The notes under the pieces: generated by a model
Seen by the model: the letters and a program-made list of their open reading frames with translations, nothing else
What the model was told of the DNA's origin: nothing
Databases searched by the model: none
Assembly (NCBI GenBank): GCA_020723345.1
Contig: DYJA01000048.1
Location: 1-48,653 of the forward strand
DNA: 48,653 nt
Direction: 5' to 3'
Origin: Candidatus Aquidulcis sp.
Lineage (GTDB): Bacteria > Chloroflexota > Anaerolineae > UBA4142
Part shown: positions 1,817 to 17,295 of the stretch, piece after piece
Layout of the letters: each line of letters starts with the position of its first letter
Position numbering within the stretch: position 1 is the first letter of the stretch
Position numbers and translations under genes: made by a program

Positions 1817-1845
1817 TTGCTTGCCAAGCGTCTTCGTGGTAAAAT
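1817..1845 (+). promoter_or_regulatory. Sigma70-type promoter for the lasso operon
   Basis: TTGCTT (1817-1822), a 17-bp spacer and TAAAAT (1840-1845) preceded by TGG. Transcription would begin near 1852, so the message for the first gene would be almost leaderless (ATG at 1859). Confidence 0.55.
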
Positions 1846-1858
1846 GCACGTGTATCCA

Positions 1859-2567: not shown

Positions 2568-2589
2568 AAGCCGAATGAGAGAGGAAAAC

Positions 2590-2799
2590 ATGATAAGTGT
2601 AAAAACGATCTCGCGCGGTGGTGTTTCTCTAGAATTACTCGAACCACGCACTATCCGCAAGGAATACAAAATGCCTGAGTTGATATGTTATGGCGATGTC
2701 GCTGAGTTGACCCAAGGAGGTACTTGGGGGAACCCGGAAGATTTTGTCTCTGCGACTGGCGGTGTCACTGCGCCTCCACGGTTCCTGGAGCAGAGATAG
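2590..2799 (+). CDS. Lasso peptide precursor
   Basis: A 69-residue precursor. The leader has the lasso consensus YxxPxLxxxGxxxxLT, read here as YKMPELICYGDVAELTQ. With the conserved Thr at -2, cleavage after Gln gives a 27-residue core encoded at 2716-2796, starting GGTWGNPED and ending FLEQR. Gly1 can be joined to Glu8 (8-residue ring) or Asp9 (9-residue ring). The ring would contain Trp4 and Pro7; Phe10 and Phe23 are possible steric plugs. My summed monoisotopic residue masses give about 2827.4 Da for the macrolactam, one water less than the linear core. ATG 2590 was chosen because GAGAGG lies 5-6 nt upstream; an in-frame ATG at 2575 would add five residues. Confidence 0.9.
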   Translation: MISVKTISRGGVSLELLEPRTIRKEYKMPELICYGDVAELTQGGTWGNPEDFVSATGGVTAPPRFLEQR

Positions 2800-2864
2800 T
2801 CCCATAATCAAGGATAGCAGATCAATGAGATCGGCACAATGCTTATACCGTTGGTAACCAATTA

Positions 2865-4586
2865 ATGGTTAGTGAGGTCTTTATAGTCAGATGGGATCGG
2901 GAACGAGAGACGCCGGTATTTTGCAAAGAAGGTTCAAATTCTGTGGCATTCGATGTTACCGATGGAGGTACATGTCTTTGGACCACCGGATTCATCTCGA
3001 ATCGCAGATCACTCGCGAGGCAGGAGGGTAAGAGAGACTCGATCTCTGATCGGGAACTCACACTTTACCTGCATCAAAAATATGGGCAGTTTGCGGCACA
3101 GCATATTGCAGGTCCATTTGCTTGGGTTCTTTGGGATTCCAATCGCCGGATGCTGATCGGTGCGCGAGATCGCGTCGGGATATGCGGTCTTTATTACTTC
3201 GTGACTGGCAAAACAGTCCTCTTAGCGAATCGTGTAGATATACTACTCGATTCGCTTCCATTTTCTCCAAGGATGAATTCTCGCTCAGTTGTTGCGCATC
3301 TCTGTGGGGAAACACCGCTCGAGGGCGAAACGTTCTATGAAAATGTGTGCGAGGTCGTACCGGGTGGCTATGTTCAGATTAACCGCGGATGTGTCGAATC
3401 GAAGCAATACTGGCGGATTGAACCGCAACCCGAACTCAAGTGTTCTTCGGATGCTGAATACGCTGAGGTTTTTCGTTCGCGCTGGTTCCAGATAATAGCA
3501 GAATATGTGCCTCCCGAACGTGTCGGGGTAACATTAAGCGGGGGAATGGACTCGACCACGATTGCTGCGGGAATGCGAGAGGCATCTCCAAACGCGGATG
3601 TTATTGCTTTTTCCCATATCGCTCCTGAGTTATCTGAGGCGGATGAGAGTCATTCTATCTCGGCGGTAGCACAGTGCTTGGGCATGCCGGTTGTCTATAC
3701 GCGCGCAGATGAACACTGGTCACTGAGTTCGCCCGAAGGAATCAGAACCTTGCGGGATGCGCCTTTCTATAACATCTATTATGATACTTGGGAAGTGATT
3801 TACCAAACCATGCGGCAGCAAGGAATAGAGATCGCTTTCACCGGCTCGGGTGGCGATCAGCTGTTTGGTGCTGACGTGGTTGCATATCCTGATCTATTTC
3901 TTACTGGGCACTGGATACAACTTGCTCGTCAAATGCGGGTACATTTGCCGTATTCAGGATTATCTCTTCTGCAATTCATTCGGCTAAGGATTGCCAGTCC
4001 AATCAAGCAAGCATATTTTCCAATGTTGCGAAAGCATCAGCCTCCTGTTGAGTGGCTTGGTACGGCACATCGTAGGTTATATCGCGCCTTGTCCGATCAG
4101 CCCGAGAGGTTCTCATGGAATCTGCCTGGGAAACAGCAACGTCTGAGGATTTTACGCGATCGTCAAATATCTCATTTTGCTCAGCACATGAATCTTCAGG
4201 CATCTCGATTTGCCATTCATCTCCGACATCCATTCTTGGATCATCGCTTGATGGAGTTTGCTGCCAGCCTTCCTACGAGTCAGACCTGTTATGCAGGTAT
4301 CCAGAAGGTCATTATGCGAAATGCGATGCTTGGCATACTTCCTGATGCCATTGTAGATCGGACTTACAAAACTTTGCCATTGGCAGTAGCCGAACGCGGG
4401 CTAAGAGAGCGCGAACAACCCAAAGTGTGGAAACTGCTCACGAATATGCGGGCGGCGGAACTTGGATTTGTGGATGAGAAATGTCTGCAAAAGACATACC
4501 GCGCATTCCTTTCAGGGAATGACAATGTCGGATGGCTTTGGTTGCACGCACTCTCCCTCGAAGACTGGCTGAGGCGGTACTTTTGA
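2865..4586 (+). CDS. Lasso macrolactam synthetase (asparagine synthetase-like cyclase)
   Basis: A 573-residue AsnB-like protein. The N-terminal Ntn-hydrolase-like domain (about 1-190) lacks the catalytic Cys2 of true glutaminases, as expected for lasso cyclases. The ATP-pyrophosphatase motif SGGMDS is at 225-230, and TGSGGDQLFG matches the second nucleotide-binding loop. The enzyme adenylates the ring-acceptor Glu or Asp of the core and lets the Gly1 amine attack it, making the threaded ring. It follows the precursor by 65 bp and overlaps the kinase gene. Base composition is visibly more AT-rich than the CGCG-dense genes further right, which suggests transfer of this part of the cluster. Only a weak ribosome binding site precedes ATG 2865. 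Confidence 0.92.
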   Translation: MVSEVFIVRWDRERETPVFCKEGSNSVAFDVTDGGTCLWTTGFISNRRSLARQEGKRDSISDRELTLYLHQKYGQFAAQHIAGPFAWVLWDSNRRMLIGARDRVGICGLYYFVTGKTVLLANRVDILLDSLPFSPRMNSRSVVAHLCGETPLEGETFYENVCEVVPGGYVQINRGCVESKQYWRIEPQPELKCSSDAEYAEVFRSRWFQIIAEYVPPERVGVTLSGGMDSTTIAAGMREASPNADVIAFSHIAPELSEADESHSISAVAQCLGMPVVYTRADEHWSLSSPEGIRTLRDAPFYNIYYDTWEVIYQTMRQQGIEIAFTGSGGDQLFGADVVAYPDLFLTGHWIQLARQMRVHLPYSGLSLLQFIRLRIASPIKQAYFPMLRKHQPPVEWLGTAHRRLYRALSDQPERFSWNLPGKQQRLRILRDRQISHFAQHMNLQASRFAIHLRHPFLDHRLMEFAASLPTSQTCYAGIQKVIMRNAMLGILPDAIVDRTYKTLPLAVAERGLREREQPKVWKLLTNMRAAELGFVDEKCLQKTYRAFLSGNDNVGWLWLHALSLEDWLRRYF

Positions 4587-5563
4587 GCGACACCTCACGA
4601 CCCCGGTCGTACTCCGTCTACGGCTTGGTTCTCCAAACCGATCTGGATTTCGCCGACATATTGCCGCTCAGCCCCAAGCCCGCTGACCTAGTTTACCGCG
4701 TCTCCCAGTCTCCCGATACCTGGGCGCAAGCGGAGATGGTTTTCGATTCCCCTTATCTCCTGCCGGATGGGTCTCCCCATTTGCAAATCTGGCGGAGGGG
4801 CGACGCGCTCCGCGTCCGGCTCCCCCAACTCGCCACGTACGATTTGACACCTACCTCGATTGTGTGTTATCCTAGACTTGGAGTCTCGGAGACGACGCTC
4901 CAACTCAACCTTTTGGCAGACGGACTCGCGCTGTGGCTAGAACTGCGCGGCTGTCTGACTTTACATGCGTCCGCCGTCGTCGTGGAGGGCGGCGCGGTGG
5001 GCTGGCTTTCCCACAGCGGGAACGGCAAAAGTACTCTCGCCGCGACGTTCGTACAGGCAGGGTATCCGTTGTTGACGGACGACATTCTGCCTGTCGAGAC
5101 ACGCGGCGATCTTTTTAGCGCGCGACCGGGGTATCCGCGCATGCGCTTGTGGGAAAACGAAGCGCAGCACTTTCTCGGACATTACGCGGACTTGGCGAAG
5201 GTTCACCCAGCCATCGTGAAACGCTGGGTGCCGATTGGCGCGGATGGCATGGGTACTTTTTGCGACGCCGCACAACCCTTGCGGTGTCTCTACGTACCGG
5301 AACGCCGCGCACCCACCGACGCGAATGCGGAGATCGAAATCGCGCCGGTTTCTGCGCGGGACGCCGTGATCGATCTGATTCGCTATTCGTTCGAGTCGTA
5401 CGTCGTCGAAGCGCTGGGGCTGCAAGCGCGCCGGTTGGACTTGTTCGCGCGGCTGGCGCGCCAGATTCCCGTCCGCCGGTTGAGTTATCCCTCCGGGCTG
5501 CCATACCTAGCGCAAGTTCGTGCCGCCATCCTGGATGATTTGCGAAACCTGGGATCGAGATAA
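4583..5563 (+). CDS. HprK-like kinase of the lasso cluster
   Basis: A 326-residue protein if it starts at TTG 4583, whose TTGA overlaps the stop codon of the cyclase; an in-frame ATG at 4532 exists but its extra residues only reread the cyclase C-terminus. The domain resembles the HPr kinase catalytic core: P-loop SHSGNGKST at 143-151 after HASAVV, and the metal-binding pair in LLTDDILP (about 166-167). Relatives in some lasso clusters phosphorylate the C-terminal serine of the precursor. The precursor here ends in Arg, so either an internal Ser/Thr or another target is used, or the protein has a non-catalytic role. It is co-transcribed with the cyclase. Confidence 0.8.
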   Translation: MSDTSRPRSYSVYGLVLQTDLDFADILPLSPKPADLVYRVSQSPDTWAQAEMVFDSPYLLPDGSPHLQIWRRGDALRVRLPQLATYDLTPTSIVCYPRLGVSETTLQLNLLADGLALWLELRGCLTLHASAVVVEGGAVGWLSHSGNGKSTLAATFVQAGYPLLTDDILPVETRGDLFSARPGYPRMRLWENEAQHFLGHYADLAKVHPAIVKRWVPIGADGMGTFCDAAQPLRCLYVPERRAPTDANAEIEIAPVSARDAVIDLIRYSFESYVVEALGLQARRLDLFARLARQIPVRRLSYPSGLPYLAQVRAAILDDLRNLGSR

Positions 5564-5634
5564 CGGGCGCGATTTGTTATCGTCCCGAAATGAAACTGTA
5601 ACAATTCTTTACGTACCCCTCGCGGAAAATCTGC

Positions 5635-5640
5635 TACAAT
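5635..5640 (+). promoter_or_regulatory. Candidate -10 element for the regulator/exporter genes
   Basis: TACAAT lies 7 bp before an in-frame GTG (5647). No convincing -35 was found at 16-18 bp, so the assignment is tentative. Confidence 0.35.
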
Positions 5641-5718
5641 GGTTCTGTGAGATCGCCGACCATCTATCCAATCGTGACTCCCAAGCCCCCAGCCAATTCG
5701 GCGCTGGGTATCCCTGTC

Positions 5719-6390
5719 ATGACCAAAGACCCGATCCGAATTTTGCTCATCGACCGGCACGCGCTCGTGCGCGCGGGCTTGCGCGTCCTGCTCGAAAGCC
5801 GCTCCGGCTTGATCGTCGTCGGCGAAGCGTCCGACTCAGCCGAAGCGCTGACCCTGGCTGCCAAAGAAGACCCCGACATCATCTTGTACGAATCAGACGA
5901 GGAACACGCCGAGAGCGTCGATTGCATCGCGGAATTGCTGGCGGCGGCGCGCAAGGCGCGCGTGGTGCTCGTGACCGGCGGACGCAATACCGAAGTCCAT
6001 CACCGCGCCGTGCGGCAAGGCGCGATTGGCATCGTGTTCAAAGACCAACCCGCCGACGTGCTCTTCAAAGCGATTGAAAAAATTCACGCCGGCGAGGCGT
6101 GGTTCGATCGCACGATGGTCGCGAACGTGCTGACGCAATTCTCGCGTGCCCGTAACGGTCCCGCGAATCCCAATGCGGAAAAGATCGCGACGCTGAGCGA
6201 GCGGGAACGCGAAATCATCACGCTGATCGGCATGGGCTTGAAGAACAAAGAGATCGGCGAACGGCTGTACATCAGCGAGATCACCGTTCGCCATCACCTT
6301 ACCTCGGTTTTTGCCAAACTCGGTACCGCCGATCGTTTGGAACTCGTCATCTACGCGTATCAAAATGGGCTGGCGCAATTGCCGCGTTGA
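5719..6390 (+). CDS. NarL/FixJ-type regulator with Glu in place of the phosphoacceptor Asp
   Basis: A 223-residue protein with a receiver-like domain followed by a LuxR-type helix-turn-helix (LSEREREIITLIGMGLKNKE, then ISEITVRHHL). In the receiver the usual IILLDL reads IILYES, so the phosphoacceptor position holds Glu (codon 5890-5892). The acidic pair near the N-terminus is reduced to one Asp (LLIDRHALV) and the conserved Lys is kept (FKDQP). This suggests an aspartate-less receiver, perhaps locked in an active-like state or controlled by other means. No kinase gene is adjacent. It lies 3 bp before the exporter gene, so it probably governs the RiPP genes around it. The start is uncertain: GTG 5647 would add 24 residues. 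Confidence 0.85.
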   Translation: MTKDPIRILLIDRHALVRAGLRVLLESRSGLIVVGEASDSAEALTLAAKEDPDIILYESDEEHAESVDCIAELLAAARKARVVLVTGGRNTEVHHRAVRQGAIGIVFKDQPADVLFKAIEKIHAGEAWFDRTMVANVLTQFSRARNGPANPNAEKIATLSEREREIITLIGMGLKNKEIGERLYISEITVRHHLTSVFAKLGTADRLELVIYAYQNGLAQLPR

Positions 6391-6393
6391 GTA

Positions 6394-8238
6394 ATGAAAG
6401 ACTGGTTTGTCTACCTAAACCGAGGACTGGCGCGGCAACGCCCGCTCGACCGGCTCGCCGATGCGCGGGGCGAAGCCGAGCCGCGCGCGCGCTTGCAAAA
6501 TCTCCGTCCATTCGTCGCGCGGCACTGGCGCAAAGGCGCGCTCGGCGCGCTGCTCATTCTCGTCAACGCGCTCCTCAGTTTTCCCGATCCCCTCATTTAT
6601 CGTTACATCGTCGACGACGTGATTCTGGCGCGGCAATTGAACTGGCTCGTCGTCGGCATCGGCGTGCTGCTCGCGGTGCAAGCGTTCGACGTGTTGAGCG
6701 GGATGCTGCGGCAATTTTATTTCGCGCGCTTCGAGCAGGATATTCTGCTCGATCTCCAGCGCGATTTGCTCGACCGCACGCTGCGTTTCCCGCAATCTTT
6801 TTTCGACGAAAAAGAGACCGGCTATTTGATGGCGCGTCTCTTGTCCGACGTGCAGGGCTTGCGCTGGTTTTTCTCCAGCACGCTCGTTTACATCGGCACG
6901 AACGCGGTGCAATTGATCGGCGGCGCGCTGCTCTTGTTCTACCTCGAATGGCGGCTCGCGCTGATCACGATTGTTTTCCTGCCCGCGCTCTTTTTCATCG
7001 TCCGCTATTTTTCCGCACGCTTGTACGCCCTCAGTCATCAAAGCATGGAGCGCCAGGCGAACGTCACGCGCACGGTCGAAGAATCGCTCGCGACGACGAC
7101 GCTCATCAAGGCATTCGCGTCCGAAAAACGCGCGCTCGGACGCGTGGTGGATCAATTGACCGCCGCGCGCGAAATCGCGCTGGAGCAGACGACCGTCGGC
7201 GCGTTGGCGAATGTCATCATCACTTCGCTGCCGGGCGTTGCGCGCGTCGTCGCGCTGGCGGGCGGCGCGTTCTGGGTGATCCGCGGCGAATGGACGCTCG
7301 GCTCGCTCCTCGCGTTCCAATCGTACATCGGCTATGTGTACAGTCCGGCGACGTATCTCGCGTCGGCGAATCTCGCGCTGCAAAACGCGCGCGCCGCGCT
7401 GGAACGCGTCTCGGCGTTGTACGACATCGTGCCGGAAGAAAACCTGGGTGTCGGCAAACCGGTCGCGCGGCTGACCGGCGCGGTCGAATTCAAAAACGTG
7501 TCGTTCTCGTACGGCGGGCGCGAGGCGGTGCTTGCCGATGTGTCGTTCCGCGCGCAACCGGGACAGCACATCGCGATTGTCGGACCGAGCGGCGTCGGCA
7601 AGACGACGTTGCTCAGTTTGCTCTTGCGATTTTACAAACCGACGCGCGGCGAAATCTGGTTTGACGATACGCCCGCGTCGGAGTACGATGTCAGCGCGCT
7701 GCGCCAACGCATCGGCTATGTCGCGCAGAGTACGTTGCTCTTGTCCGGCACGATCCGCGACAATTTGTGTTACGGCAATCCAGATGCCAGCGACGCGCAG
7801 ATCACGCGCGCGGCAAAGATCGCGGGCATTCACGATTTCATCGCGGGCTTGCCGCAGGAATACGACGCGGTCGTCGGCGAGCGCGGCGTCAATTTATCGG
7901 AAGGACAAAAGCAGCGACTCGCGATTGCGCGCGCGTTGATCAAGGATCCCGACATCATCATTTTGGACGAGCCGACTTCCGCGCTCGACAGCATCGTCGA
8001 AAAATCGATCTTCGACGCGCTGCCGGAATTGGCGCGCGGTAAGACGCTGTTCGTCGTCGCGCATCGCCTCGCGACAATTCAAAATTCGGATCGCATTTTG
8101 TTGCTGAACGAAAATCGGCTCGTGGACGCGGGGACGCACGCGGAGTTGATGGCGCGGAACGCGTACTATCAGTCGCTTGTAGTCAATCAGTCGATCAGTC
8201 AACCAGGCAATCAGGCAATCGGTCAACCAGTTGCCTGA
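6394..8238 (+). CDS. ABC exporter (fused permease-ATPase)
   Basis: A 614-residue half-transporter. The membrane domain with six predicted helices spans about 45-330. The ATPase domain has Walker A GPSGVGKTT at 397-405, signature LSEGQ at 501-505, Walker B IIILDE at 521-526 and an H-loop in VVAHRLA. There is no N-terminal C39 peptidase, so the leader must be removed by another enzyme, as in lasso systems where an LasD/McjD-type exporter secretes the finished peptide. It begins 3 bp after the regulator and is followed by an HprK-like kinase and a PqqD-like protein. It could serve the lasso peptide, the radical SAM product, or both. The last 17 or so residues are encoded by a repetitive CAATCAG-rich tract and are probably not functional. 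Confidence 0.88.
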   Translation: MKDWFVYLNRGLARQRPLDRLADARGEAEPRARLQNLRPFVARHWRKGALGALLILVNALLSFPDPLIYRYIVDDVILARQLNWLVVGIGVLLAVQAFDVLSGMLRQFYFARFEQDILLDLQRDLLDRTLRFPQSFFDEKETGYLMARLLSDVQGLRWFFSSTLVYIGTNAVQLIGGALLLFYLEWRLALITIVFLPALFFIVRYFSARLYALSHQSMERQANVTRTVEESLATTTLIKAFASEKRALGRVVDQLTAAREIALEQTTVGALANVIITSLPGVARVVALAGGAFWVIRGEWTLGSLLAFQSYIGYVYSPATYLASANLALQNARAALERVSALYDIVPEENLGVGKPVARLTGAVEFKNVSFSYGGREAVLADVSFRAQPGQHIAIVGPSGVGKTTLLSLLLRFYKPTRGEIWFDDTPASEYDVSALRQRIGYVAQSTLLLSGTIRDNLCYGNPDASDAQITRAAKIAGIHDFIAGLPQEYDAVVGERGVNLSEGQKQRLAIARALIKDPDIIILDEPTSALDSIVEKSIFDALPELARGKTLFVVAHRLATIQNSDRILLLNENRLVDAGTHAELMARNAYYQSLVVNQSISQPGNQAIGQPVA

Positions 8239-8275: not shown

Positions 8276-9091
8276 ATGAACTCGCTTACCATCCGCATTG
8301 CCGATCTCGATACGACGCTCGATCTGACCGAGTGTCACGCCGCGACGCGCGCGCGTTTGGCGGAGCATTACGCCGCGTTCGTCGCGCCGCCGTCGCCGGA
8401 CGCGTTCACCGTGCGCGTCCGCGTCGAGCCGGGCGCGGCGTACATTTCGCCGGATTCGTCGCGCACCTGGCAAGTTCGTTCCGCGCTGCGCGATGGTCGG
8501 CTCGAATTTGTTTCGCTTTTTGAATCCGGCGAAATGGATTGGGCGACGCGGCAAGGCGCGCTCGTGATGCGTTCGGAAGGCGATCCCGAAAATTTTTTGC
8601 GCGTGCTGTACGCGTGGCGTTGTCTCGAAAGCGGCGCGCTGCTCGTCCACGCGAGCGGCGTCATCCGCGACGGGCGCGGCTATGTCTTTTTCGGTCCGTC
8701 GGGCAGCGGCAAAACGACGGTGACGCGCCTGTCGTCGCGCGATACGATCTTGAGCGACGATTTGGTGATCGTCAAAAAACGCGCGGCGCGTTTTTGCGTT
8801 TACGGCGTCCCGTTTCGCGGCGATTTGCCGGAAGCGCCGCGCGCGAACGCGGTCGCCGAGTTGCACGGTCTGTTCGCGCTGACGAAATCTTCCGAGCATC
8901 GCGTCGCGGCGATGCCCGCGTCCGAAGCGGTGGCGCGGTTGGCGGCGTGTGTGCCGTTCGTCATGACGCGCCCGGCGCACGCGCAGCGCGTCGCGGAAAT
9001 TTGCGCTGAGTTGCACGCCGCCATGCCGGCGCGGCGGTTGTATTTTCTGCGCGATGAAAGATTCTGGGAGGTGATTGATGGATTGGTCTAG
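8276..9091 (+). CDS. HprK-like kinase of the second RiPP system
   Basis: A 271-residue protein with a variable N-terminal half and an HPr-kinase-like C-terminal half: HASGVI, then P-loop FGPSGSGKTT at 139-148 and ILSDDLVIV with the Asp pair at 161-162. It shares the core architecture of the lasso kinase at 4583 but little sequence outside the motifs. Such genes accompany PqqD-like proteins in many RiPP and peptide-modification loci; the substrate is unknown. ATG 8276 was chosen because upstream in-frame codons lie in a repetitive tract. It overlaps the PqqD-like gene by 14 bp. Confidence 0.75.
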   Translation: MNSLTIRIADLDTTLDLTECHAATRARLAEHYAAFVAPPSPDAFTVRVRVEPGAAYISPDSSRTWQVRSALRDGRLEFVSLFESGEMDWATRQGALVMRSEGDPENFLRVLYAWRCLESGALLVHASGVIRDGRGYVFFGPSGSGKTTVTRLSSRDTILSDDLVIVKKRAARFCVYGVPFRGDLPEAPRANAVAELHGLFALTKSSEHRVAAMPASEAVARLAACVPFVMTRPAHAQRVAEICAELHAAMPARRLYFLRDERFWEVIDGLV

Positions 9092-9356
9092 TCGTCCGAC
9101 GCCGCACCCGCAAACGGCGGCGCGCATCGTCGATGGGTCAGCAGTGATCGTGCTGGCGGATACCGGACAAGTGAATGTGTTGAATGCCGTCGGAACGCGC
9201 GTGTGGGAATTGTGCGATGGTTCGCGCAGCGCGCGCGAAATCGCCGAGACGCTCGCGGCAGAATTTGAGGTGACGCCGGAACAGGCGTTGAGCGACACGG
9301 CGGAATTTTTGGAATCGCTCGTCCGCGCGCAAGCAATTGTGCTTGAATCGCCGTGA
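9078..9356 (+). CDS. PqqD-family protein (RRE) of the second RiPP system
   Basis: A 92-residue PqqD-like protein: VIVLADTGQVNVLNAVGTRVWELCDG, then ARE[IL]AETLAAEFEV and a closing wing RAQAIVLES. Such proteins bind the leader of a precursor peptide and present it to a radical SAM enzyme. GGGAGGTG ends 5 nt before ATG 9078. It overlaps the kinase gene, and the radical SAM gene follows after a regulated leader. Compared with the lasso PqqD-like protein at 1859 it keeps the fold motifs but is clearly a different paralogue. Confidence 0.85.
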   Translation: MDWSSRPTPHPQTAARIVDGSAVIVLADTGQVNVLNAVGTRVWELCDGSRSAREIAETLAAEFEVTPEQALSDTAEFLESLVRAQAIVLESP

Positions 9357-9376
9357 GAAAAATTGAGTCCATCGTC

Positions 9377-9422
9377 AACGCCGCGTCACAAAAATTCAGC
9401 AACTCGGCGGGCGCGGCGTTTT
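9377..9422 (+). terminator. Terminator of the kinase/PqqD unit
   Basis: AACGCCGCG (9377-9385) pairs with CGCGGCGTT (9412-9420), followed by TTTT that runs into the next promoter's -35 box. The 26-nt loop is long, so efficiency is uncertain. Confidence 0.55.
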
Positions 9423-9450
9423 GACAGTCCCCGTCGTATCACGGTATAAT
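9421..9450 (+). promoter_or_regulatory. Consensus sigma70-type promoter for the radical SAM transcript
   Basis: TTGACA (9421-9426), 18-bp spacer, TATAAT (9445-9450): both hexamers are perfect. Transcription should start near 9457, 164 nt before the radical SAM start codon. Confidence 0.85.
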
Positions 9451-9456
9451 GGCAGC

Positions 9457-9620
9457 AAGAATTTCTGATCCGTTAAATTTGTCTGCTCGAAGCATTTCTG
9501 TACGGAGGCAATGAACTCCAGTCTCGATTTGGACGCCTTGACTGGAAGGAGTGAGTGGCGTAACCGACCGTTCGCTTTTTCGCGCGACGGTCGGTTTTTG
9601 TTTCGTTTGGGAGTGTAGCG
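9457..9620 (+). ncRNA. Structured leader RNA or small RNA upstream of the radical SAM gene
   Basis: The RNA from the consensus promoter to the terminator is about 143 nt. CCAGTC (9518-9523) pairs with GACTGG (9540-9545). Inside that loop ACGCC (9533-9537) can pair with GGCGT (9557-9561) outside it, giving an H-type pseudoknot. GGAG (9504-9507) can instead pair with CTCC (9516-9519), a competing fold. The terminator at 9562-9599 follows at once. This is the layout of a riboswitch or attenuator, or of a free small RNA. I do not recognise a known riboswitch consensus. A 35-codon ORF (ATG 9511 to TAG 9618) runs through it, but its GGAGG is only 2 nt from the ATG. Confidence 0.55.
9562..9599 (+). 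terminator. Intrinsic terminator/attenuator before the radical SAM gene
   Basis: CCGACCG (9564-9570) pairs with CGGTCGG (9588-9594), extended inwards by TCGC/GCGA after a bulged T and outwards by A-T pairs, and is followed by five T. It sits 21 bp before the start codon at 9621, so readthrough must be allowed for the gene to be expressed from the promoter at 9421. Confidence 0.8.
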
Positions 9621-10739
9621 ATGTCTGTCGAAGGAGCCGACTTTAATCCGCAGTCTGATAATTTATACAACCAAATCCTCGCCAAGACGCGCGAAGAGCA
9701 TCGTCTGTTCACCGCGCATTGGGAACTCACGTATCGCTGCAACGAACGCTGCGCGCATTGCTACCTTGATGTGTTGCCGGCATCCGCGCGCGCGCCGGAG
9801 GAATTGACGACGGACGAATGTCGGCGCGTGGTGGACGAACTTGCCGCGCTCGGCGTACTGAATCTGACGTTTTCCGGCGGCGAGATTTTTGCGCGCCGCG
9901 ATTTTTTCGCGCTGGCGGAGTACGCGCGCGCCAAACGCTTTTTGCTGCGACTCTTTACGAACGGCATCGCGATCACGCCCGCGCGCGCCGAGCGCATCGC
10001 CGCGCTGCACCCGTACGCCGTCGAAATCAGCGTGTACGGCGCGCGCGCCGAAACGCACGAGCAGATCACGCAGCGCGCGCGCTCGTTCGCGTTGACGACG
10101 CGCGCGTTTCGATTGTTGCGCGAACGCGGCGTGCGGACGGTGTTCAAAACGGTGTTGATGCGCGAGAACGCGCGCGAGTTCGACGCGCTCAAAGCATTGG
10201 CGAACGCGTTGGGCGCGCAATTTCGTTACGACATCACGCTCACGCCGATGGACAATGGCGGGCGCGCGCCGCTGCAGCATCGAATGGCGTACGATGATTT
10301 GGTGCGGCTTTTCCGCGCAACGCTCGACCCGGCGGTGTGGACCAAGCGAACGTTGCGACCAGATCAGCCAACGTGCGGCATCGCGAGTAACGCGCTGTTG
10401 ATCGATCCGTACGGAAATATTTTCCCTTGCGTGCAAGCGCGTGTGCCGATTGGCAATCTGCGCGCGCAATCGCTCCAAACGCTTTGGCAAGCATCGCCGG
10501 TGTGGCAAGAATTGGCGCGCTTGACGCTCGACCAATTGCCGGTGTGTCGCCAGTGTGAGTTGAATAGTTTGTGCGTTCGTTGTCATGGCTTGGCGCGATT
10601 GGAAGACGGCGATTTGCGCGCGCCCGCCACAAGCAATTGTATGGCTGCGCTCGCGCGCCGCCAAGCGCTAGTGGAGCAAGGCGCGCTGCCGCAAGATTTT
10701 CCAATTCCGGCTCATTTGCAAAAACAGTCACGCGGATAG
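9621..10739 (+). CDS. Radical SAM/SPASM peptide-modifying enzyme
   Basis: A 372-residue protein. The radical SAM cluster motif is CNERCAHC (Cys40, 44, 47) at the start of a partial TIM barrel with FSGGE at 84-88 binding SAM. The C-terminal SPASM domain has seven cysteines (252, 270, 309, 312, 318, 321, 340), enough for two auxiliary iron-sulfur clusters. Enzymes of this type make thioether, C-C or related crosslinks in ribosomal peptides and work with a PqqD-like partner, here the gene at 9078. The likely substrate is the Cys-containing peptide at 11949. The N-terminal 30 residues are not typical of the family and might hold a contact for the leader binder. The exact chemistry cannot be read from the sequence. 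Confidence 0.92.
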   Translation: MSVEGADFNPQSDNLYNQILAKTREEHRLFTAHWELTYRCNERCAHCYLDVLPASARAPEELTTDECRRVVDELAALGVLNLTFSGGEIFARRDFFALAEYARAKRFLLRLFTNGIAITPARAERIAALHPYAVEISVYGARAETHEQITQRARSFALTTRAFRLLRERGVRTVFKTVLMRENAREFDALKALANALGAQFRYDITLTPMDNGGRAPLQHRMAYDDLVRLFRATLDPAVWTKRTLRPDQPTCGIASNALLIDPYGNIFPCVQARVPIGNLRAQSLQTLWQASPVWQELARLTLDQLPVCRQCELNSLCVRCHGLARLEDGDLRAPATSNCMAALARRQALVEQGALPQDFPIPAHLQKQSRG

Positions 10740-10747
10740 ATGTGAAG

Positions 10748-10780
10748 AGAAACCCGTTTTCTCGCAGAAAACGGGTTTCT
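10748..10780. terminator. Terminator hairpin after the radical SAM gene
   Basis: A 15-bp perfect inverted repeat (AGAAACCCGTTTTCT and its complement) with a 3-nt loop, 8 bp after the stop codon. The T-rich 3' arm makes it a good terminator in this direction. Confidence 0.75.
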
Positions 10781-10851
10781 GGTGAAGGCGGTGTGTTTAT
10801 GAAACGGATACGAAACTGCAATTCTACTTTACGGATAACGACGCGGGAATG

Positions 10852-10860
10852 TGCTATAGT
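10852..10860 (+). promoter_or_regulatory. Extended -10 promoter element
   Basis: TGC-TATAGT is an extended -10 (TGn) with no clear -35 at normal spacing. It lies 27 bp before ATG 10888 and would drive the secreted protein and the second precursor. Confidence 0.45.
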
Positions 10861-10887
10861 GGGATCACTAAATTCTCAAAGGAAAAA

Positions 10888-11889
10888 ATGAAGCGTCCTT
10901 TCGCGACCGTAGATATTTTGCTCGCCATTTCAATCATTCTCGTTGCGACCGGCATCGCGCTTTTGATGGCGCCGCCCGTTCACGCGGCAAATCCGAGCAT
11001 GGAACTGTGGGACTGTGCGAATGGCATCAGCGGTTCGGTGGGCGGGTGCGACATTTTGCAGAGCGGCAATAGCCACGGCTGGACGGCGACCGGCAACATT
11101 GGGAATTCTTCGCACTATACGTACGGCGACGTTGTGCCGTGGCGAATTGAATTCATGAATTTGCCGACTACGCCCGGCACGGTGGTCGCGGTAACATTTC
11201 TCACCGCGTTTGCGAAAAGTCCCGCGTACGATTTCGACTATATGGCGAATTGGTATACAACGGTCTACACGGTGACGTCGAACGATCCATGCGTCGGGAC
11301 GGCGCTTTCAGCATCGTGTACTCAATCGTCGATTTTCCCGCTGCCTCAAGATCCCACCGAATCGGCTGGGACATGCCCGGCGGCACCCGCAGGAAATGGC
11401 TGGACTTTTCCGGCTGGCTCGATGCAAGGTTATGGTGGAATAACGATCAACGACATCGTGTACAACGGCACTCACGCTTGCGATGGCAGCACCGTCGATG
11501 CCAGTGTTACCGTCACATTCACCACCAGCGGGGGCGCGGATGCCATTCTTCTTTGGGGGATGCACATTGCGTCCCCAACCCACTGGGTCACCGTCCCCGG
11601 CTCGACCGAGTCGCCGTATCACGTCCAGTTGAGTACGTTCAGCATCAATGGTGTGCCCGCATCGCCTTGTTCCGGGTGCGGCAAGCAATTGCAGTTGAAG
11701 GTTCAGGACGCGCCCACGGCGGTAACGCTCTCTCAGTTTTTCGGCACGCGCTTGCCTGCCCGCGTCGCGCTGGCGTGGAGCGCGGGCAGCGCGCTTGATA
11801 CGACGATGCTTGGCGCATTCGGATTGGTTATGCTGGGATTCGCGGCGGTCGGGGTTTACCAGATACACAGACAAGATTGGCGGCGATAG
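10888..11889 (+). CDS. Secreted protein with C-terminal membrane anchor, unknown function
   Basis: 333 residues; AAAGGAAAAA precedes ATG 10888. The N-terminal signal peptide (hydrophobic DILLAISIILVATGIALLM, cleavage likely after VHA) leads into a Ser/Thr/Gly-rich extracellular region with several cysteines, including a CSGCGK motif near the end. The C-terminus is one hydrophobic helix (about 305-325) followed by HRQDWRR, the layout of a tail-anchored surface protein or sorting-signal substrate. No catalytic motif was recognised. It lies between the radical SAM enzyme and the precursor and shares its signal-peptide/C-terminal-helix plan with the protein at 16332, so it may belong to the same surface system. 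Confidence 0.75.
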   Translation: MKRPFATVDILLAISIILVATGIALLMAPPVHAANPSMELWDCANGISGSVGGCDILQSGNSHGWTATGNIGNSSHYTYGDVVPWRIEFMNLPTTPGTVVAVTFLTAFAKSPAYDFDYMANWYTTVYTVTSNDPCVGTALSASCTQSSIFPLPQDPTESAGTCPAAPAGNGWTFPAGSMQGYGGITINDIVYNGTHACDGSTVDASVTVTFTTSGGADAILLWGMHIASPTHWVTVPGSTESPYHVQLSTFSINGVPASPCSGCGKQLQLKVQDAPTAVTLSQFFGTRLPARVALAWSAGSALDTTMLGAFGLVMLGFAAVGVYQIHRQDWRR

Positions 11890-11948
11890 ACTAGTCGCCG
11901 ATAATGCGACGTGCAGATCAGTGGGAGATTTCAAGCGGACGTACAAAT

Positions 11949-12137
11949 ATGCGTGACAAGATGAATGTAGAGAAAATCAAAAACGCGGCAACGCGGCAAC
12001 AACCCGACAAAAAACCATACGCGAAACCGCAGATCATCTATCAGGGAGTTTTGGAAGCGATGGCAGCCGTGTGCCTGCCTGCTCCGCCCGGCAAATCAGT
12101 TCCCGGCATCGGCGGCTGTTCGACCGCGTATAGTTGA
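11949..12137 (+). CDS. Candidate RiPP precursor for the radical SAM enzyme
   Basis: A 62-residue peptide with a charged N-terminus (Lys/Arg/Gln-rich), then the leader-like motif YAKPQIIYQGVLEAMA and a short C-terminal core with two cysteines 15 residues apart (AVCLPAPPGKS, then GIGGCSTAYS). The YxxPx[IL]xxxG part matches the RRE-binding motif of the lasso precursor at 2590. The two Cys, the Ser/Thr next to the second one and the Pro/Gly-rich spacer make a plausible substrate for thioether or related crosslinks. Start choice is uncertain (ATG 11949 or 11961; no good ribosome binding site). It is 59 bp after the secreted protein and 38 bp before the FN3-like lipoprotein. Confidence 0.75.
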   Translation: MRDKMNVEKIKNAATRQQPDKKPYAKPQIIYQGVLEAMAAVCLPAPPGKSVPGIGGCSTAYS

Positions 12138-12175
12138 TCCAAACAAGGCGTGACTGCAAAGAAGCTGTGACACTG

Positions 12176-12649
12176 ATGTCAGTCAATTCATGGATTCGAT
12201 TGACGTTCGTTTTTTGTCTTGCGCTGACCGCGTGCAGCACTTCGCCGCAAGCGGGTGTCGTCGTCGAGTGGACGACTGCGACGGAAATCGATACGGCGGG
12301 TTTCAATCTCTATCGCAGCGAGCAAGCGGGAGGAACGTACACCAAAATCAACAGCGCGCTCATTCCTGCCTCGACGGATCCGCTGCGCGGCGGCAAGTAT
12401 CGGTACGAAGACCGGGACGCGCTGCCCGGTCGGATTTACTACTACAAACTCGAAGACGTGGAACTCGACGGCACGACGACGTTGCACGGACCGATCCAGG
12501 CGAGCGCGGGATCGAATTCTGGAGCCGATGCGGCGATCCTATTGATCGGCGCGGGCGCGCTTGCGATAATCGGTCTAGCCGCGCTTGCCGTGCGCCGGCG
12601 GGGGAAAAACCGTCAAGCGGATTCAGACCGACGCGATGAAGGGAAATGA
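12176..12649 (+). CDS. FN3-like lipoprotein with C-terminal membrane helix
   Basis: A 157-residue protein. The N-terminus is a lipoprotein signal peptide (FVFCLALTAC; lipobox LTAC). One fibronectin-III-like domain follows, with the pattern VEWTTATEIDTAGFNLYRS and YYYKLEDV. A C-terminal hydrophobic helix (AAILLIGAGALAIIGLAALAV) and an Arg/Lys-rich tail finish the protein. The FN3 unit closely resembles that of the protein at 16332 (INWTTASEISNVGFHILRS and YYYKLQSV). It overlaps the C25 peptidase gene by 14 bp, so the two are translated together. A role as docking or anchoring partner of that peptidase is inferred. Confidence 0.8.
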   Translation: MSVNSWIRLTFVFCLALTACSTSPQAGVVVEWTTATEIDTAGFNLYRSEQAGGTYTKINSALIPASTDPLRGGKYRYEDRDALPGRIYYYKLEDVELDGTTTLHGPIQASAGSNSGADAAILLIGAGALAIIGLAALAVRRRGKNRQADSDRRDEGK

Positions 12650-15600
12650 TCGATTGCCGTACAGGGAACATCTAGGGCGTCTTTCGGGACTCAGTATGCT
12701 TGTGCTGAGTCTTGTTTTTACCTTCTTTGTTTTAGATTCTGACGCGCGCGCGTTCGCGCAGTCGACGTCGCGCCTGAACGTGATCCAGTCGGACGCGCAT
12801 CGCGTCGTGGTGGAATTGGAACTCGATAGTTATTCGGCGCGCGCGCAGCGCGTCGGCGGAACGATTTATACCGCGCTCTCCGTGCCGGAGTTTGGATCGA
12901 CCGGCGAGCGCGGCAAGCCGCAAATGCCGGTGCGCGGCGCGTTCATCGGCGTTCCGCCCGGCGCGCAACCAACGCTCAAAATTCTCGCGGACGACGTGCG
13001 GAGCGACGCGCTGGCGCGCCCGCCGCTGCCGGTGCCGACCCCGCGCGTCTCTATCGATCCCAGGTCCAGATTTCCGCGCGATCTGGGCGATGCGATCATT
13101 CCCAACGCCGCCGCGTACGCGTCGAATCAGAATTATCCGGCGGACGTCGCGCGGATCACGTCCGTCGGCGATTGGCGCAGCCAGCATTTCGCCGTCGTCG
13201 AATTTCATCCGCTGCAGTACAACGCGGCGTCGTGGCAATTGCTCTTCCATCGCCGCGTGCGCGTCGAGATTACGCTCAGTTATCCGCGCGGCGTGTCGGC
13301 GCAAACGCTGGGCGGCGCGGTGAACGAAGGCGCGTTCGAAACGGTATTCCAAAAGAGCATTCTCAATTACGCGTCGGCGAAAAATTGGCGCGCGCGGAGC
13401 GCGCCCCGGCTGTCCGCGCAACGCGCTTGGGCGCCGTCGTCGACGCAGACGTGGTACAAACTTGGCGTGAACGCGGACGGGATTTATCAGGTGACGTGTT
13501 CGCAACTTCAGAGCGCGGGCGTGAACCCGTTGCCCAATCCCAGCACGTTCCAAATTTTCAAACAAGGTGTTGAGGTCGCGATCAACGTCGTCGGAGCGTG
13601 GAGCGGCGGTTGCGCGTCCGGCGATTACATCGAATTTTTCGGCGAGAAAGCGAACACCAAGTACGCCGACCCGAATGTCTATTGGCTCACGTTTGGCACG
13701 GCGGCAGGCAAACGCATGTTGCCGCGCGACGGAACCGGCAGCGGCGCGGCAACGGCGACGTTTACGGACACGCTGCGCGTTGAAAAAAATTCGATTTACA
13801 TTTCGATGTATCCCGCGCTTGCGGACTATCCATCCCCGGCAAACGAGAACTATGAACATTGGTATTGGGACTATGTGAGCCAGGCGTATGGAAAACCGTC
13901 GGCGGATTTTCCATTCGCACTAAACTATCTCGCGACGGCAAGTGTTTCAGCGACGGTACAGGTCAATCTCGTCGGTTACCAACCGGCGAATGAGTCGGTG
14001 CCGGTTGGTCATTACACGCGCGTCTACATCAACAGCCACCCTGATCCGATTGGCGAAATTACGTGGAGTGGTTCGGTCACGCAAGCGGTGACCTTTGCGT
14101 TTCCGCAATCGTATTTGAATGTCGGAGCGAACACGATTCGGGTCAACGAGCCGAATTCAACTTCGGGCGATCTGATCTACGTGGATAGTTTCAATCTGAG
14201 ATACACGCGTCCCTTTTCCGCGAGCAACGACGCGCTGCGTTTCAGGCAATCGGCGGCGGGACCCTGGCAGTACCAACTTACCGGCTTTACAAGTTCAAAC
14301 ATCGAACTGTTCGACATCACCGATCCATCCAACGTCGCGTCGATCAACGGAACGATCACTCCGGGGTCGCCGTACTCGACGCTCCAGTTTGCCGACGCCA
14401 GCGCGCCGCCGCGCGAGTACATCGCGCTCACGACCGCGCAGCGCAAAACGCCGACGCTCGCGCTCGATGCCGCGTCCAATTTGCGGAGCGGGAACAATCG
14501 CGCCGATTATCTCATCATCGCGCACGGCGATTTTGTCGCGACGGTTCAAGCGTTGCGAACATTTCGCGAGACGCAACAGTTGTATTCCCAGGTCGTCAAC
14601 GTGCAGGACGTGTACGACGAGTTCAACTATGGCGTGGTCGATCCGCAAGCGATCCGCGATTTTCTCGCGTACGCCTACGCCAACTGGACCGGCGGCGGAC
14701 AATGGTCGCCGCCGTCGTACGTCTTGCTCGTCGGCGATGGGACGTACGATCCCAAAGAATATTGCGCGACCGGCTGTTGGTACACGACGCCGCGCACGCT
14801 GATTCCGCCATTTCTTCGGATGGTCGATCCGTGGCTTGGGGAAACGGCAAGCGATAATCGTTTCGTCGCGTTCTTCGATGGCGCCGGCAATTTGATGCCG
14901 CAAATGCACATCGGTCGCTTGCCCGCGAACAATGTGAGCGAAGCGAGCGCGATGGTGACCAAGATTTTGAATTACGAACAGAGTACGCCCGGCGGCGCGT
15001 GGCGTTCGACCGTTTCGTTCGTCGCGGATTCCAAGTACAAAGCGGATGGCAATATTGATGAAGCCGGAGATTTCTGGGCGGCGTCGGACGAACTGTACGA
15101 CAATGTGCTTTACACACCCGCGTCTCTCGCGAAAGAACGGATCTATTACAACCTTTGTCCGGCGTGTCCCGCGCCATATCCGACGTACACCACGGCGACG
15201 GACGCCGAGAACGCGATCAACTCGGCGATCAATACCGGACGCGTGATCGTCAACTATGTTGGTCACGGAAGTTATATTCAGTGGAGTAACTATCCGGCGA
15301 TTTTCAGTACAGCCGATGTGCCTGGGTTGGGCAACGGCAACAAACTCCCGGTGATGTTGGAAATGACGTGCATGACCGGCTATTTTCACGAGCCGAGTAC
15401 GTCGAGTCTTGCCGAAACGAATGTCCGCGCGGCGGGCAAGGGCGCGCTCGCGAGTTGGGCGCCGACCGGCTGGGGCTTGGTGAACGGGCACAGTCTGCTC
15501 CACAAAGGTTTTCTCGACGCGGTGATGAATCAAAGCGTGCGCCAATTGGGTCCCGCGACGACGTTGGGCAAAGCGTATCTCTGGGCGAATAGCACCGGCT

Positions 15601-15704
15601 TTCGCGATTTGATCGATACGTACGCGTTGCTCGGCGATCCGGCTTCGCGCATGCAGATCGAATTTCGCGGCACGCACTTTTTCCCATTTATTCGACGACA
15701 GTGA
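12636..15704 (+). CDS. C25 family (gingipain-type) cysteine peptidase, secreted
   Basis: 1022 residues. The signal peptide (LSMLVLSLVFTFFVLDSDARAFA) is followed by a propeptide-like region, a domain starting WYKLGVNADGIYQVT shared with the peptidase at 17291, a beta-rich domain and the C-terminal caspase-like domain. The catalytic dyad is visible as His in NYVGHGSY (codon 15264-15266) and Cys in EMTCMTGYF (codon 15369-15371). C25 peptidases cleave after Arg or Lys or act as sortase-like transpeptidases (PorU). The Bacteroidetes type 9 secretion C-terminal domain is absent, so export should be by the Sec system. ATG 12636 overlaps the lipoprotein gene. Confidence 0.88.
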   Translation: MKGNDRLPYREHLGRLSGLSMLVLSLVFTFFVLDSDARAFAQSTSRLNVIQSDAHRVVVELELDSYSARAQRVGGTIYTALSVPEFGSTGERGKPQMPVRGAFIGVPPGAQPTLKILADDVRSDALARPPLPVPTPRVSIDPRSRFPRDLGDAIIPNAAAYASNQNYPADVARITSVGDWRSQHFAVVEFHPLQYNAASWQLLFHRRVRVEITLSYPRGVSAQTLGGAVNEGAFETVFQKSILNYASAKNWRARSAPRLSAQRAWAPSSTQTWYKLGVNADGIYQVTCSQLQSAGVNPLPNPSTFQIFKQGVEVAINVVGAWSGGCASGDYIEFFGEKANTKYADPNVYWLTFGTAAGKRMLPRDGTGSGAATATFTDTLRVEKNSIYISMYPALADYPSPANENYEHWYWDYVSQAYGKPSADFPFALNYLATASVSATVQVNLVGYQPANESVPVGHYTRVYINSHPDPIGEITWSGSVTQAVTFAFPQSYLNVGANTIRVNEPNSTSGDLIYVDSFNLRYTRPFSASNDALRFRQSAAGPWQYQLTGFTSSNIELFDITDPSNVASINGTITPGSPYSTLQFADASAPPREYIALTTAQRKTPTLALDAASNLRSGNNRADYLIIAHGDFVATVQALRTFRETQQLYSQVVNVQDVYDEFNYGVVDPQAIRDFLAYAYANWTGGGQWSPPSYVLLVGDGTYDPKEYCATGCWYTTPRTLIPPFLRMVDPWLGETASDNRFVAFFDGAGNLMPQMHIGRLPANNVSEASAMVTKILNYEQSTPGGAWRSTVSFVADSKYKADGNIDEAGDFWAASDELYDNVLYTPASLAKERIYYNLCPACPAPYPTYTTATDAENAINSAINTGRVIVNYVGHGSYIQWSNYPAIFSTADVPGLGNGNKLPVMLEMTCMTGYFHEPSTSSLAETNVRAAGKGALASWAPTGWGLVNGHSLLHKGFLDAVMNQSVRQLGPATTLGKAYLWANSTGFRDLIDTYALLGDPASRMQIEFRGTHFFPFIRRQ

Positions 15705-15712
15705 TCTATGAT

Positions 15713-15770
15713 CCTTGCGAAGGTTTCCTTCGACTCCGCGCGGCTTCGCTCAGGACGAACTTTCGCAAGG
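15713..15770. repeat. 58-bp element with imperfect terminal inverted repeats (family C)
   Basis: CCTTGCGAAGGTT at the left end and AACTTTCGCAAGG at the right end are inverted with one mismatch. The middle holds the CCTTCGACTCCGC...GCTCAGGA motif seen again at 28894 and 29981. It fills the gap between the peptidase and the signal peptidase gene. Confidence 0.75.
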
Positions 15771-15786
15771 TTGTGCAGTGACGACA

Positions 15787-16320
15787 ATGAGTATGGTGAC
15801 CGATTCAGTTCGCGCCAAGAAGGATGCCGTCGACGCGCTGGCGGACGATTCGCTCCGGGCGGGGCAAGCGATCAACTTGACGCTCACGACGCCGAGCATG
15901 TTACCAACTTTGCAACCGGGCGATCAAGTGATCGTGCGCGGCGCGCGCGCAGACGAACTGCGTCTCGGCGACATCGTGCTGATCCAGGCGGGCGCGGCGC
16001 GGATCGCGCACCGGCTGATCGGCTGGCGGCGCGTCGACGACGTCGCGTGTCTGGTGACCAAAGGCGACCACGCGCCGGTCGCGGACGCGATTTGCCTGCC
16101 GACCGATTTGTGTGGTATTATTATAGCGGCGCAACGTGGTGAGCGTCGGCTGAATTTTCAATCGGCGGGCGCGCGCGGCGTGAATCGGCTGCTCGCATTC
16201 TTCTCGCGCGGCGAAGATGTCATTTTTCGCGCGCCGCCCAGTTTGCTCCGACGAATTGTGTTGAAGGGTGTACGCGTTTTCTTGCGCGCGGGTGTGTTGT
16301 TGTTGGATCGGTTAGTTTAG
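15787..16320 (+). CDS. Signal peptidase-like S24/S26 protease (SipW-like)
   Basis: A 177-residue protein. Catalytic Ser37 lies in TPSMLPTLQPGD, and His75 in ARIAHRLIG replaces the bacterial Lys, as in the archaeal/ER-type (SipW) signal peptidases. TKGDHAPVAD (about 91-100) matches the conserved Asp region. No N-terminal transmembrane helix is present; the C-terminus is amphipathic (FLRAGVLLLDRLV). SipW-type enzymes process special exported proteins rather than the bulk secretome. S24/S26 proteins also occur beside HprK/PqqD RiPP genes. Its place between two FN3/C25 pairs suggests it matures those proteins or the RiPP product. ATG 15787 was chosen because the earlier frame is encoded by a repeat; ATG 15793 is also possible. 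Confidence 0.85.
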   Translation: MSMVTDSVRAKKDAVDALADDSLRAGQAINLTLTTPSMLPTLQPGDQVIVRGARADELRLGDIVLIQAGAARIAHRLIGWRRVDDVACLVTKGDHAPVADAICLPTDLCGIIIAAQRGERRLNFQSAGARGVNRLLAFFSRGEDVIFRAPPSLLRRIVLKGVRVFLRAGVLLLDRLV

Positions 16321-16331
16321 GAGACGACCGC

Positions 16332-17189
16332 ATGAACGGATCGCGGCGACTTGCAGTGAAACAATCTCTGGCGTGCTTGGTGTTGGCGGCGCTGTTGCTG
16401 CTCGGTTACGCGCGCGTATCGGCGGCGGTCACCATTTCGTCTTTCGGCGCGCAGGCGCAGGGTAGCGCAATCCAAATCAATTGGACGACGGCGAGCGAAA
16501 TCAGCAATGTCGGCTTTCACATTTTGCGGAGTACGTCTTCGGGCGGCAGTTACGCGCAGATCAACGCGAGCATCATTCCGAGCAAATGTATCGGCTGCGT
16601 CGCGGGCGCGAGTTATTCTTTCACCGACTCGGCGGTTTCGTCCGGGCAAACCTATTACTACAAACTTCAAAGTGTGAGCAGCAGCGGCGGCACGCAACTT
16701 TTCGGACCTCAATCTGCGAGCATTGTCGGAGCGACTCCCACGCCGACGACCAAGCCGCACGCGACCGCAACTTCCGTCGCGCCCCCCGCGACGCAACCGG
16801 TTGCGTCTACCGCGACGAATACGCCCGTCAAAACTTCCGCGCTGCCAACCGCGACGAGCACGCGCGCGCCAATTGTCTCGTCCGCTGCCGCGCCAACCGC
16901 GATGTCGACGCGCGTCGCGATCTGGATCGGTCCCACCGCGTCGCCCGCGCCCGGCGCGAACAATGCTGCCCCGCCCGCGTCTCAAGTTGCCGTTGCGATC
17001 AAATCAACGCCGCCGGAATCGGATGAAGAGCCAGTGATGGAAACTGCCGCGCCTGCCGAGCAATCTTTCGACGCGCGCCGCGCGATCGGCATCGGCGTTT
17101 CGCTGCTCGCCAGCGTTTTGTTGATCGGCTCCATCGGGCTGGGTGCGGCGTCGCTCTATTTCTTCTTGTGCGCTTTTTTGCGCCGATGA
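16332..17189 (+). CDS. FN3-like surface protein with Thr/Pro stalk and C-terminal anchor
   Basis: 285 residues. A signal peptide (ACLVLAALLLLGYARVSA) precedes one FN3-like domain (about 33-130) of the same type as the lipoprotein at 12176. A 100-residue Ala/Thr/Pro-rich stalk, a hydrophobic helix (IGIGVSLLASVLLIGSIGLG) and a terminal RR follow. The domain contains a CIGC pair absent from the paralogue. The layout is that of a wall-spanning protein exposing the FN3 domain. It starts 12 bp after the signal peptidase gene and is followed by the second C25 gene, repeating the FN3-then-C25 order seen at 12176. Confidence 0.8.
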   Translation: MNGSRRLAVKQSLACLVLAALLLLGYARVSAAVTISSFGAQAQGSAIQINWTTASEISNVGFHILRSTSSGGSYAQINASIIPSKCIGCVAGASYSFTDSAVSSGQTYYYKLQSVSSSGGTQLFGPQSASIVGATPTPTTKPHATATSVAPPATQPVASTATNTPVKTSALPTATSTRAPIVSSAAAPTAMSTRVAIWIGPTASPAPGANNAAPPASQVAVAIKSTPPESDEEPVMETAAPAEQSFDARRAIGIGVSLLASVLLIGSIGLGAASLYFFLCAFLRR

Positions 17190-17216
17190 ATTCCTCCGCC
17201 GCGCGTATTTCCCTTT

Positions 17217-17295
17217 GTCATTTCGAGCGGAGCGAGAAATCCCGATTCTCCCCTAGTCGAGATTTCTCGCCGCACAAACCGCTCCTCGAAATGAC
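17217..17295. repeat. 79-bp nested inverted-repeat element (family D)
   Basis: The ends GTCATTTCGAG and CTCGAAATGAC are a perfect 11-bp inverted pair; inside, CGAGAAATC and GATTTCTCG form a second pair. Its right end contains the ATG at 17291 used by the next gene. Confidence 0.8.

Follow-up and report, generated by a model that had tools for sequence, protein, structure and literature searches.

Organization of the locus

The window analyzed here is the whole 48,653-nucleotide stretch of Candidatus Aquidulcis sp. DNA (Chloroflexota; contig DYJA01000048.1), in which a second peptide-modifying system follows a lasso peptide cluster. We think it probable that this second system is a cassette gated by cyclic di-GMP (c-di-GMP), which couples the biosynthesis of a ribosomally synthesized and post-translationally modified peptide (RiPP) to surface proteins, and that the RiPP family was not described previously.

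All features of the cassette are on the forward strand. The gene for an HprK-like peptide kinase (HprK2, 271 amino acids; 8276–9091), recognized by sub-cut-off NCBIfam matches and conserved catalytic residues, is followed by that for a PqqD-type RiPP recognition element (RRE; 9078–9356; Pfam PqqD 62.9 bits, cut-off 23.4). Between the PqqD and radical SAM genes are a promoter-like TTGACA-18-TATAAT sequence (9421–9450; consensus match 12/12), a c-di-GMP-II riboswitch aptamer (9495–9578; RF01786, 57.3 bits with a gathering threshold of 53.5, E = 3.5e-11), and an intrinsic terminator hairpin (9562–9599; fold of 9555–9612 at -24.5 kcal/mol, z -3.1) that precedes a T run. The radical SAM/SPASM peptide maturase (9621–10739; Pfam Radical_SAM 80.9 and SPASM 38.5, both above cut-off) is separated from the precursor peptide by a gene for a secreted protein (10888–11889), whose sequence has a C-terminal APTAVTLSQF tail, a transmembrane (TM) helix, and a basic end. 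The precursor gene (11952–12137) was supported by homologues and alignment, and its start is uncertain (11904, 11952, or 11964). A short conserved precursor with a leader, an RRE, and a modifying enzyme are encoded together, as in RiPP systems in general, and modification of the product is predicted.

A first-pass annotation, made from the sequence alone, had described the kinase, PqqD, radical SAM/SPASM, and two-Cys precursor genes as a RiPP system distinct from the lasso cluster. Open reading frames and Pfam and NCBIfam scans placed all four where it had put them, and the distinction is supported. That annotation had overlooked the riboswitch, the intervening secreted-protein gene, and the half of the cassette that extends beyond 12137 to 19357. 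This half encodes an FnIII-like lipoprotein with a C-terminal TM segment (12134–12649; lipobox and tail by sequence), which is conserved beside the peptide and C25 genes; a C25 peptidase with a gingipain-type propeptide (C25a, 12585–15704; Peptidase_C25 293 bits and Propeptide_C25 48.9 bits, above cut-offs); an S26/S24-like signal peptidase (15715–16320; weak sub-cut-off Pfam matches, S..H pattern); an FnIII-like surface protein with a C-terminal TM segment (16332–17189); and a second C25 peptidase, a lipoprotein with a lipobox (C25b, 17168–19357), which is homologous to C25a and retains the catalytic His and Cys. The S26/S24-like and surface-protein genes are conserved in the cassette.

Precursor groups and conservation of the cassette

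The window precursor has the leader KKPYAKPQIIYQGVLEAMA, and a two-Cys core follows (...CLPAPPGKSVPGIGGCSTAYS). The two Cys, already pointed out in the first-pass annotation, were borne out by the sequence and the alignment. The leader motif given there, YxKPxIxxxGxLE, includes a Gly that is not conserved; the aligned consensus is KxYxxPxIxxxxxLExxA. The window precursor matched no precursor family in Pfam, NCBIfam, or PHROGs, and no NCBIfam model matched any of nine precursors from the three groups found.

These groups have in common the leader form [KR]x[YW]xxPx[IV]xxxxL. Group A, the window type, has KxYxxPxIxxxxxLExxAxxC, usually followed by GK, another Cys, and Ser at the C terminus. In its alignment P, E, A, the first Cys, and Gly are invariant, and K45 and the second Cys exceed 90%; the C-terminal residue is Ser in 21 of 22 sequences and Thr in the other one, while the residues just before it vary freely. 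Group B precursors (KxWxxPxIxxERxLExxAQGGPP...GPL...C) mostly have one Cys and mostly lack GK. They adjoin the same cassette (L097-L107, L109-L111), and the kinases there have DE, not DD. Group C (KxYxxPxVxxVxL...VLGxCK; L108, L112-L122, L141-L148) occurs in other families of the phylum, and most of its precursors end in Ser or Thr. Processing at the conserved GK by a C25 peptidase with Lys specificity is one possibility, although most group B precursors have no GK.

Searches covered 14 genomes of the family, 249 of the class, and 400 of the phylum; only the window's own phylum was well covered, and some loci were truncated at contig edges. Precursor homologues were present in 8 of the 14 family genomes, the source genome included. 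This genome has a second precursor copy (C52, L020), which is accompanied by separate C25a, S26, and surface genes and has no radical SAM gene near it. The homologues and the second site indicate that the precursor is not a chance open reading frame. Since the window radical SAM gene is the sole close relative of its kind in its own genome, both precursors probably depend on a single maturase acting in trans. Two further radical SAM genes in this genome (L035, L036) are without the cassette.

The precursor adjoined a close radical SAM relative in 14 of the 16 other loci having downstream-side sequence; the exceptions were L089, with precursors elsewhere in the genome, and L090. The first-pass annotation had named the lack of such a conserved pairing as what would count against it; we looked for the pairing and found it conserved. 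L090 (G011 contig C35) has radical SAM, PqqD, and C25 genes without a recognizable precursor, and a broken-looking kinase that adjoins a masked stretch.

A profile search of the 400 phylum genomes gave one further clear group A precursor (G140), accompanied by kinase, PqqD, radical SAM, C25, and S26 genes. Relatives of the radical SAM protein were detected by profile in 38 of the 249 class genomes and 18 of the 400 phylum genomes, and most of those fetched occupy the same kind of cassette. Of the 29 radical SAM loci flanked by 4 kb or more in both directions, 27 had PqqD, 25 the HprK-like kinase, and 24 C25; where the kinase was not adjacent (G008, G002, G012, G001), it was found elsewhere in each genome. 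The association of C25 with the peptide extends beyond a single class of the phylum, with gene order rearranged. In one contig scan, the radical SAM protein matched only an unrelated pair of radical SAM genes from Armatimonadetes, and the cassette was not present there.

The kinase and the terminal Ser/Thr

The NCBIfam matches of the kinase were weak and below cut-off (HprK_rel_B 34.6 bits, ScmC 28.1), and its profile search against the PDB gave mainly P-loop matches. The catalytic residues H125, G140, G143, G145, K146, T147, D161, and D162 are complete in the window protein. They are conserved across 42 homologues, in which G143 was kept in 39, position 147 was Ser or Thr, and D161/D162 were retained in most, with D/E variation in the others. 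The same H-G-G-G-K-S/T-D-D set has been described in BsfK and further lasso-precursor kinases (PMC10368454). HPr-kinase homologues phosphorylate lasso precursors, most of the characterized ones at the C-terminal Ser (PMC8498205), and BsfK at an internal Ser (PMC10368454). By sequence, the cassette has both marks of a lasso-type precursor kinase, the catalytic residues and a candidate substrate with a C-terminal Ser. The first-pass annotation went too far in denying HprK-like kinases any established role in systems of this kind, because this one shares its catalytic residues with lasso-precursor kinases that mostly act on a C-terminal Ser, and precursors of the window type end in Ser or Thr.

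Like PadeK, ThcoK, SyanK, and BsfK, the window kinase has an HPr-kinase-like P-loop and a YxxP-leader precursor as its candidate substrate, and the cassette has an RRE, as in the case of BsfK. Unlike them, it is paired with a radical SAM/SPASM enzyme and not with a lasso protease and cyclase. The likeness is one of catalytic residues. The precursor ended in Ser or Thr in 28 of 28 loci with a DD kinase and in 5 of 15 with DE or ED (Fisher p = 1.6e-6), an association that is supportive only, because it reflects about four kinase changes on the radical SAM tree.

The HprK-like protein could also be a regulatory or internal-site kinase, with a protease or the radical SAM enzyme itself reading the terminal Ser/Thr, in the way that mycofactocin MftC acts on a C-terminal residue. 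MftC is the closest named maturase (145 bits), the C-termini of group B vary in the presence of a kinase, and the target of BsfK is internal (PMC10368454). However, most characterized lasso kinases recognize a terminal Ser (PMC8498205), and the terminal Ser/Thr was lost only where the DD motif is altered. We consider this alternative rather unlikely, and terminal phosphorylation remains our preferred role for the kinase.

A gene for a PF14907 nucleotidyltransferase adjoins the kinase gene in L055 (12051–13370), L091 (2345–3772), L107 (6657–7793), and L111 (6353–7606), and some kinase-bearing lasso clusters likewise contain a nucleotidyltransferase gene. For the lasso peptide pseudomycoidin, a nucleotidyltransferase adds a hexose to the phosphorylated peptide (PMC8498205); because of this precedent, decoration of the phosphorylated peptide is possible in the PF14907-bearing clusters.

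The maturase and known RiPP classes

The CxxxCxxC motif was present in 57 of 57 radical SAM homologues, and the profile of the PqqD family matched the lasso RRE TbiB1 in the PDB (E = 2.4e-14). The closest NCBIfam model for the maturase was mycofactocin MftC, at 145.3 bits against an equivalog cut-off of 265. Scores were also under the cut-offs for sactipeptide and ranthipeptide maturases (StsB 124.1/625, AlbA 68.6/850, SkfB 55/300), for PQQ (PqqE 98.7/381.35, PqqD 34.2/46), and for SynChlorMet (ScmC 28.1/125, ScmD 36.9/100, ScmE 95.4/400, ScmF 71.9/400). A lasso B2 protease and asparagine-synthetase-like cyclase are not in the conserved set, although L094, L098, and L147 hold some. The first-pass annotation had been unable to assign a named class, which agrees with these scores for the sactipeptide, mycofactocin, and PQQ models.

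Mycofactocin (MftC) and PQQ (PqqE/PqqD) nevertheless provide the best-scoring maturase models, and in them, as predicted for the window system, a SPASM radical SAM enzyme works with a PqqD-type RRE to modify a short precursor; the precursor ends and cores differ, and the window adds a kinase. SynChlorMet (ScmC/D/E/F, NCBIfam TIGR04248-04251) likewise brings together an HprK-like protein, a PqqD homologue, and radical SAM/SPASM proteins. The window set is far under its cut-offs and has one radical SAM gene; C25 and a riboswitch also belong to it. By analogy, the kinase step would resemble the lasso kinases and the radical step the PqqD/SPASM pairs.

An antimicrobial or signalling RiPP of the sactipeptide or ranthipeptide kind would have two Cys thioethers, lose its leader, and leave the cell as a toxin or signal; its only relation to the C25 and surface genes would be that of neighbours. 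The two Cys are conserved in group A, SkfB was among the relatives of the maturase in the PDB search and StsB among its NCBIfam matches, and in the window, L029, and L030 the kinase has the lasso-cluster ABC exporter nearby. However, the scores are far from sactipeptide cut-offs (StsB 124 vs 625, AlbA 69 vs 850), group B precursors are mostly single-Cys, 24 of the 29 loci contain C25, and the additional precursor in the source genome (L020) is found with C25 and without a radical SAM gene, all of which makes such a product improbable.

c-di-GMP riboswitches, C25 peptidases, and surface proteins

In the window, the 5' half of the terminator overlaps the 3' part of the aptamer, and the bases in common suggest that the c-di-GMP-II riboswitch acts as an ON switch. 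The aptamer is the only above-cut-off c-di-GMP-II match in the source genome. Equivalent elements between PqqD and radical SAM genes were found in G007:C89 and G009:C80 at sub-threshold scores. In L055 a tandem riboswitch pair precedes the operon, and the two above-cut-off c-di-GMP-II matches of G140 are the tandem pair before its operon. In L023 and L032, copies above threshold stand ahead of the surface-protein gene, and in L024 a PTAVTLSSF protein is preceded by a c-di-GMP-I aptamer. L030 has a strong c-di-GMP-I riboswitch (86.4 bits; 17911–17995, reverse strand) roughly 1.2 kb away from the C25b gene and on the opposite strand.

C25a was above the Pfam cut-off and matched PorU (E = 1.9e-17) and the Lys-gingipain propeptide (E = 1.4e-10); the catalytic His was present in 51 of 51 and the Cys in 50 of 50 readable homologues. 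The likeness to PorU, a sortase-type C25 member, and to gingipains lies in the C25 domain, these residues, and the propeptide. Orphan precursors in L024, L026, L027, and L057 adjoin secreted proteins with PTAVT[LV][SA]SF tails, after which comes a short end, mostly a TM segment and basic residues; the secreted protein of the window carries the variant PTAVTLSQF. This adjacency is unlikely to be due to chance, because there are only about seven such tails per genome.

A comparable arrangement occurs in Clostridioides difficile, where a c-di-GMP-II riboswitch raises the sortase substrate CD2831 and a c-di-GMP-I riboswitch represses ZmpI, the protease that releases it (PMC4591827). Likewise, the c-di-GMP riboswitch of the window would control a surface protein beside a surface protease, but the window has C25 in place of a metalloprotease and sortase, and a putative modified peptide in addition.

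It is doubtful that the cassette is two unrelated units, a peptide pathway in the cytoplasm and a C25/surface unit under c-di-GMP control, that merely travel together without acting on each other. In the window a riboswitch and terminator do separate the PqqD and radical SAM genes, and riboswitches stand directly before the surface gene in L023, L024, and L032. Against this, C25 and the peptide remain associated across class boundaries despite changes of order, and orphan precursors keep a PTAVTLSSF-type neighbour.

Proposed mechanism

Our model of the c-di-GMP-gated cassette is as follows. At high c-di-GMP, the bound aptamer would take the terminator bases, and transcription would proceed into the maturase, surface-protein, precursor, and C25 genes, the direction being inferred. 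As in other members of its family, the PqqD-type RRE would bind the KxYxxPxIxxxxxLExxA leader and present the precursor to the enzymes. The radical SAM/SPASM enzyme might then modify the core, most likely with a cross-link centred on the conserved Cys. The catalytic residues, the substrate end, and the lasso precedent suggest that the kinase would phosphorylate the hydroxyl of the C-terminal Ser/Thr, and in some clusters the PF14907 nucleotidyltransferase may next decorate the phosphate. After export, the signal-peptidase-like and C25 peptidases could process the peptide, the PTAVTLSSF-tailed proteins, or both at the surface. Several precursors could share one kinase/maturase set in trans.

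Given the riboswitch and the association with secreted surface proteins and with proteases of the gingipain/PorU type, the peptide may have its role at the cell surface and not be merely another antibiotic. A more specific version, which we hold only as a speculative and unlikely one, is that the terminally phosphorylated, modified peptide is an anchor, linker, or activator in c-di-GMP-gated surface sorting, in which a PorU-like C25 transpeptidase processes the PTAVTLSSF-type tails, and not a secreted antibiotic.

Several observations weigh against the model. Rfam scans revealed riboswitches in some but not all group A loci, and in no group B or C locus that was scanned (L099, L103, L113, L122, and L139-L148 were outside the scan). 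Group B has the kinase and yet mostly lacks a terminal Ser/Thr, and the roughly four kinase changes, counted as independent, gave no significance by independent pairs, a comparison of low power. The similarity of the kinase to HPr kinase is weak at the sequence level; its single-sequence model has a predicted local distance difference test (pLDDT) score of 37 and is unusable as a structure. No exporter is conserved within the cassette.

We found no paper, in the literature searched, on a RiPP that combines a radical SAM enzyme with a precursor Ser kinase, or on a RiPP maturase under a c-di-GMP riboswitch. If the model is correct, the cassette would be both, and would connect modified peptides with the surface programme in a phylum that is widespread and has received little study. 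The terminal Ser, the two Cys, the GK, and the PTAVTLSSF tail are defined sites for testing.

The neighbouring lasso cluster

The lasso cluster (1823–8238) encodes B1, B2, a precursor (2575–2799), a cyclase, an HprK-like kinase of its own (4532–5563), a LuxR-type regulator, and an ABC exporter. Its precursor is not Ser-ended although the cluster has a kinase. Homologues of its exporter lie near the kinase of the second system in two other genera (L029, 742–2568; L030, 3–1064), and for this reason the exporter may be shared between the two systems. Near the lasso cluster, at 6–1724, the window also encodes a surface protein with repeated SdrD/B-like domains.

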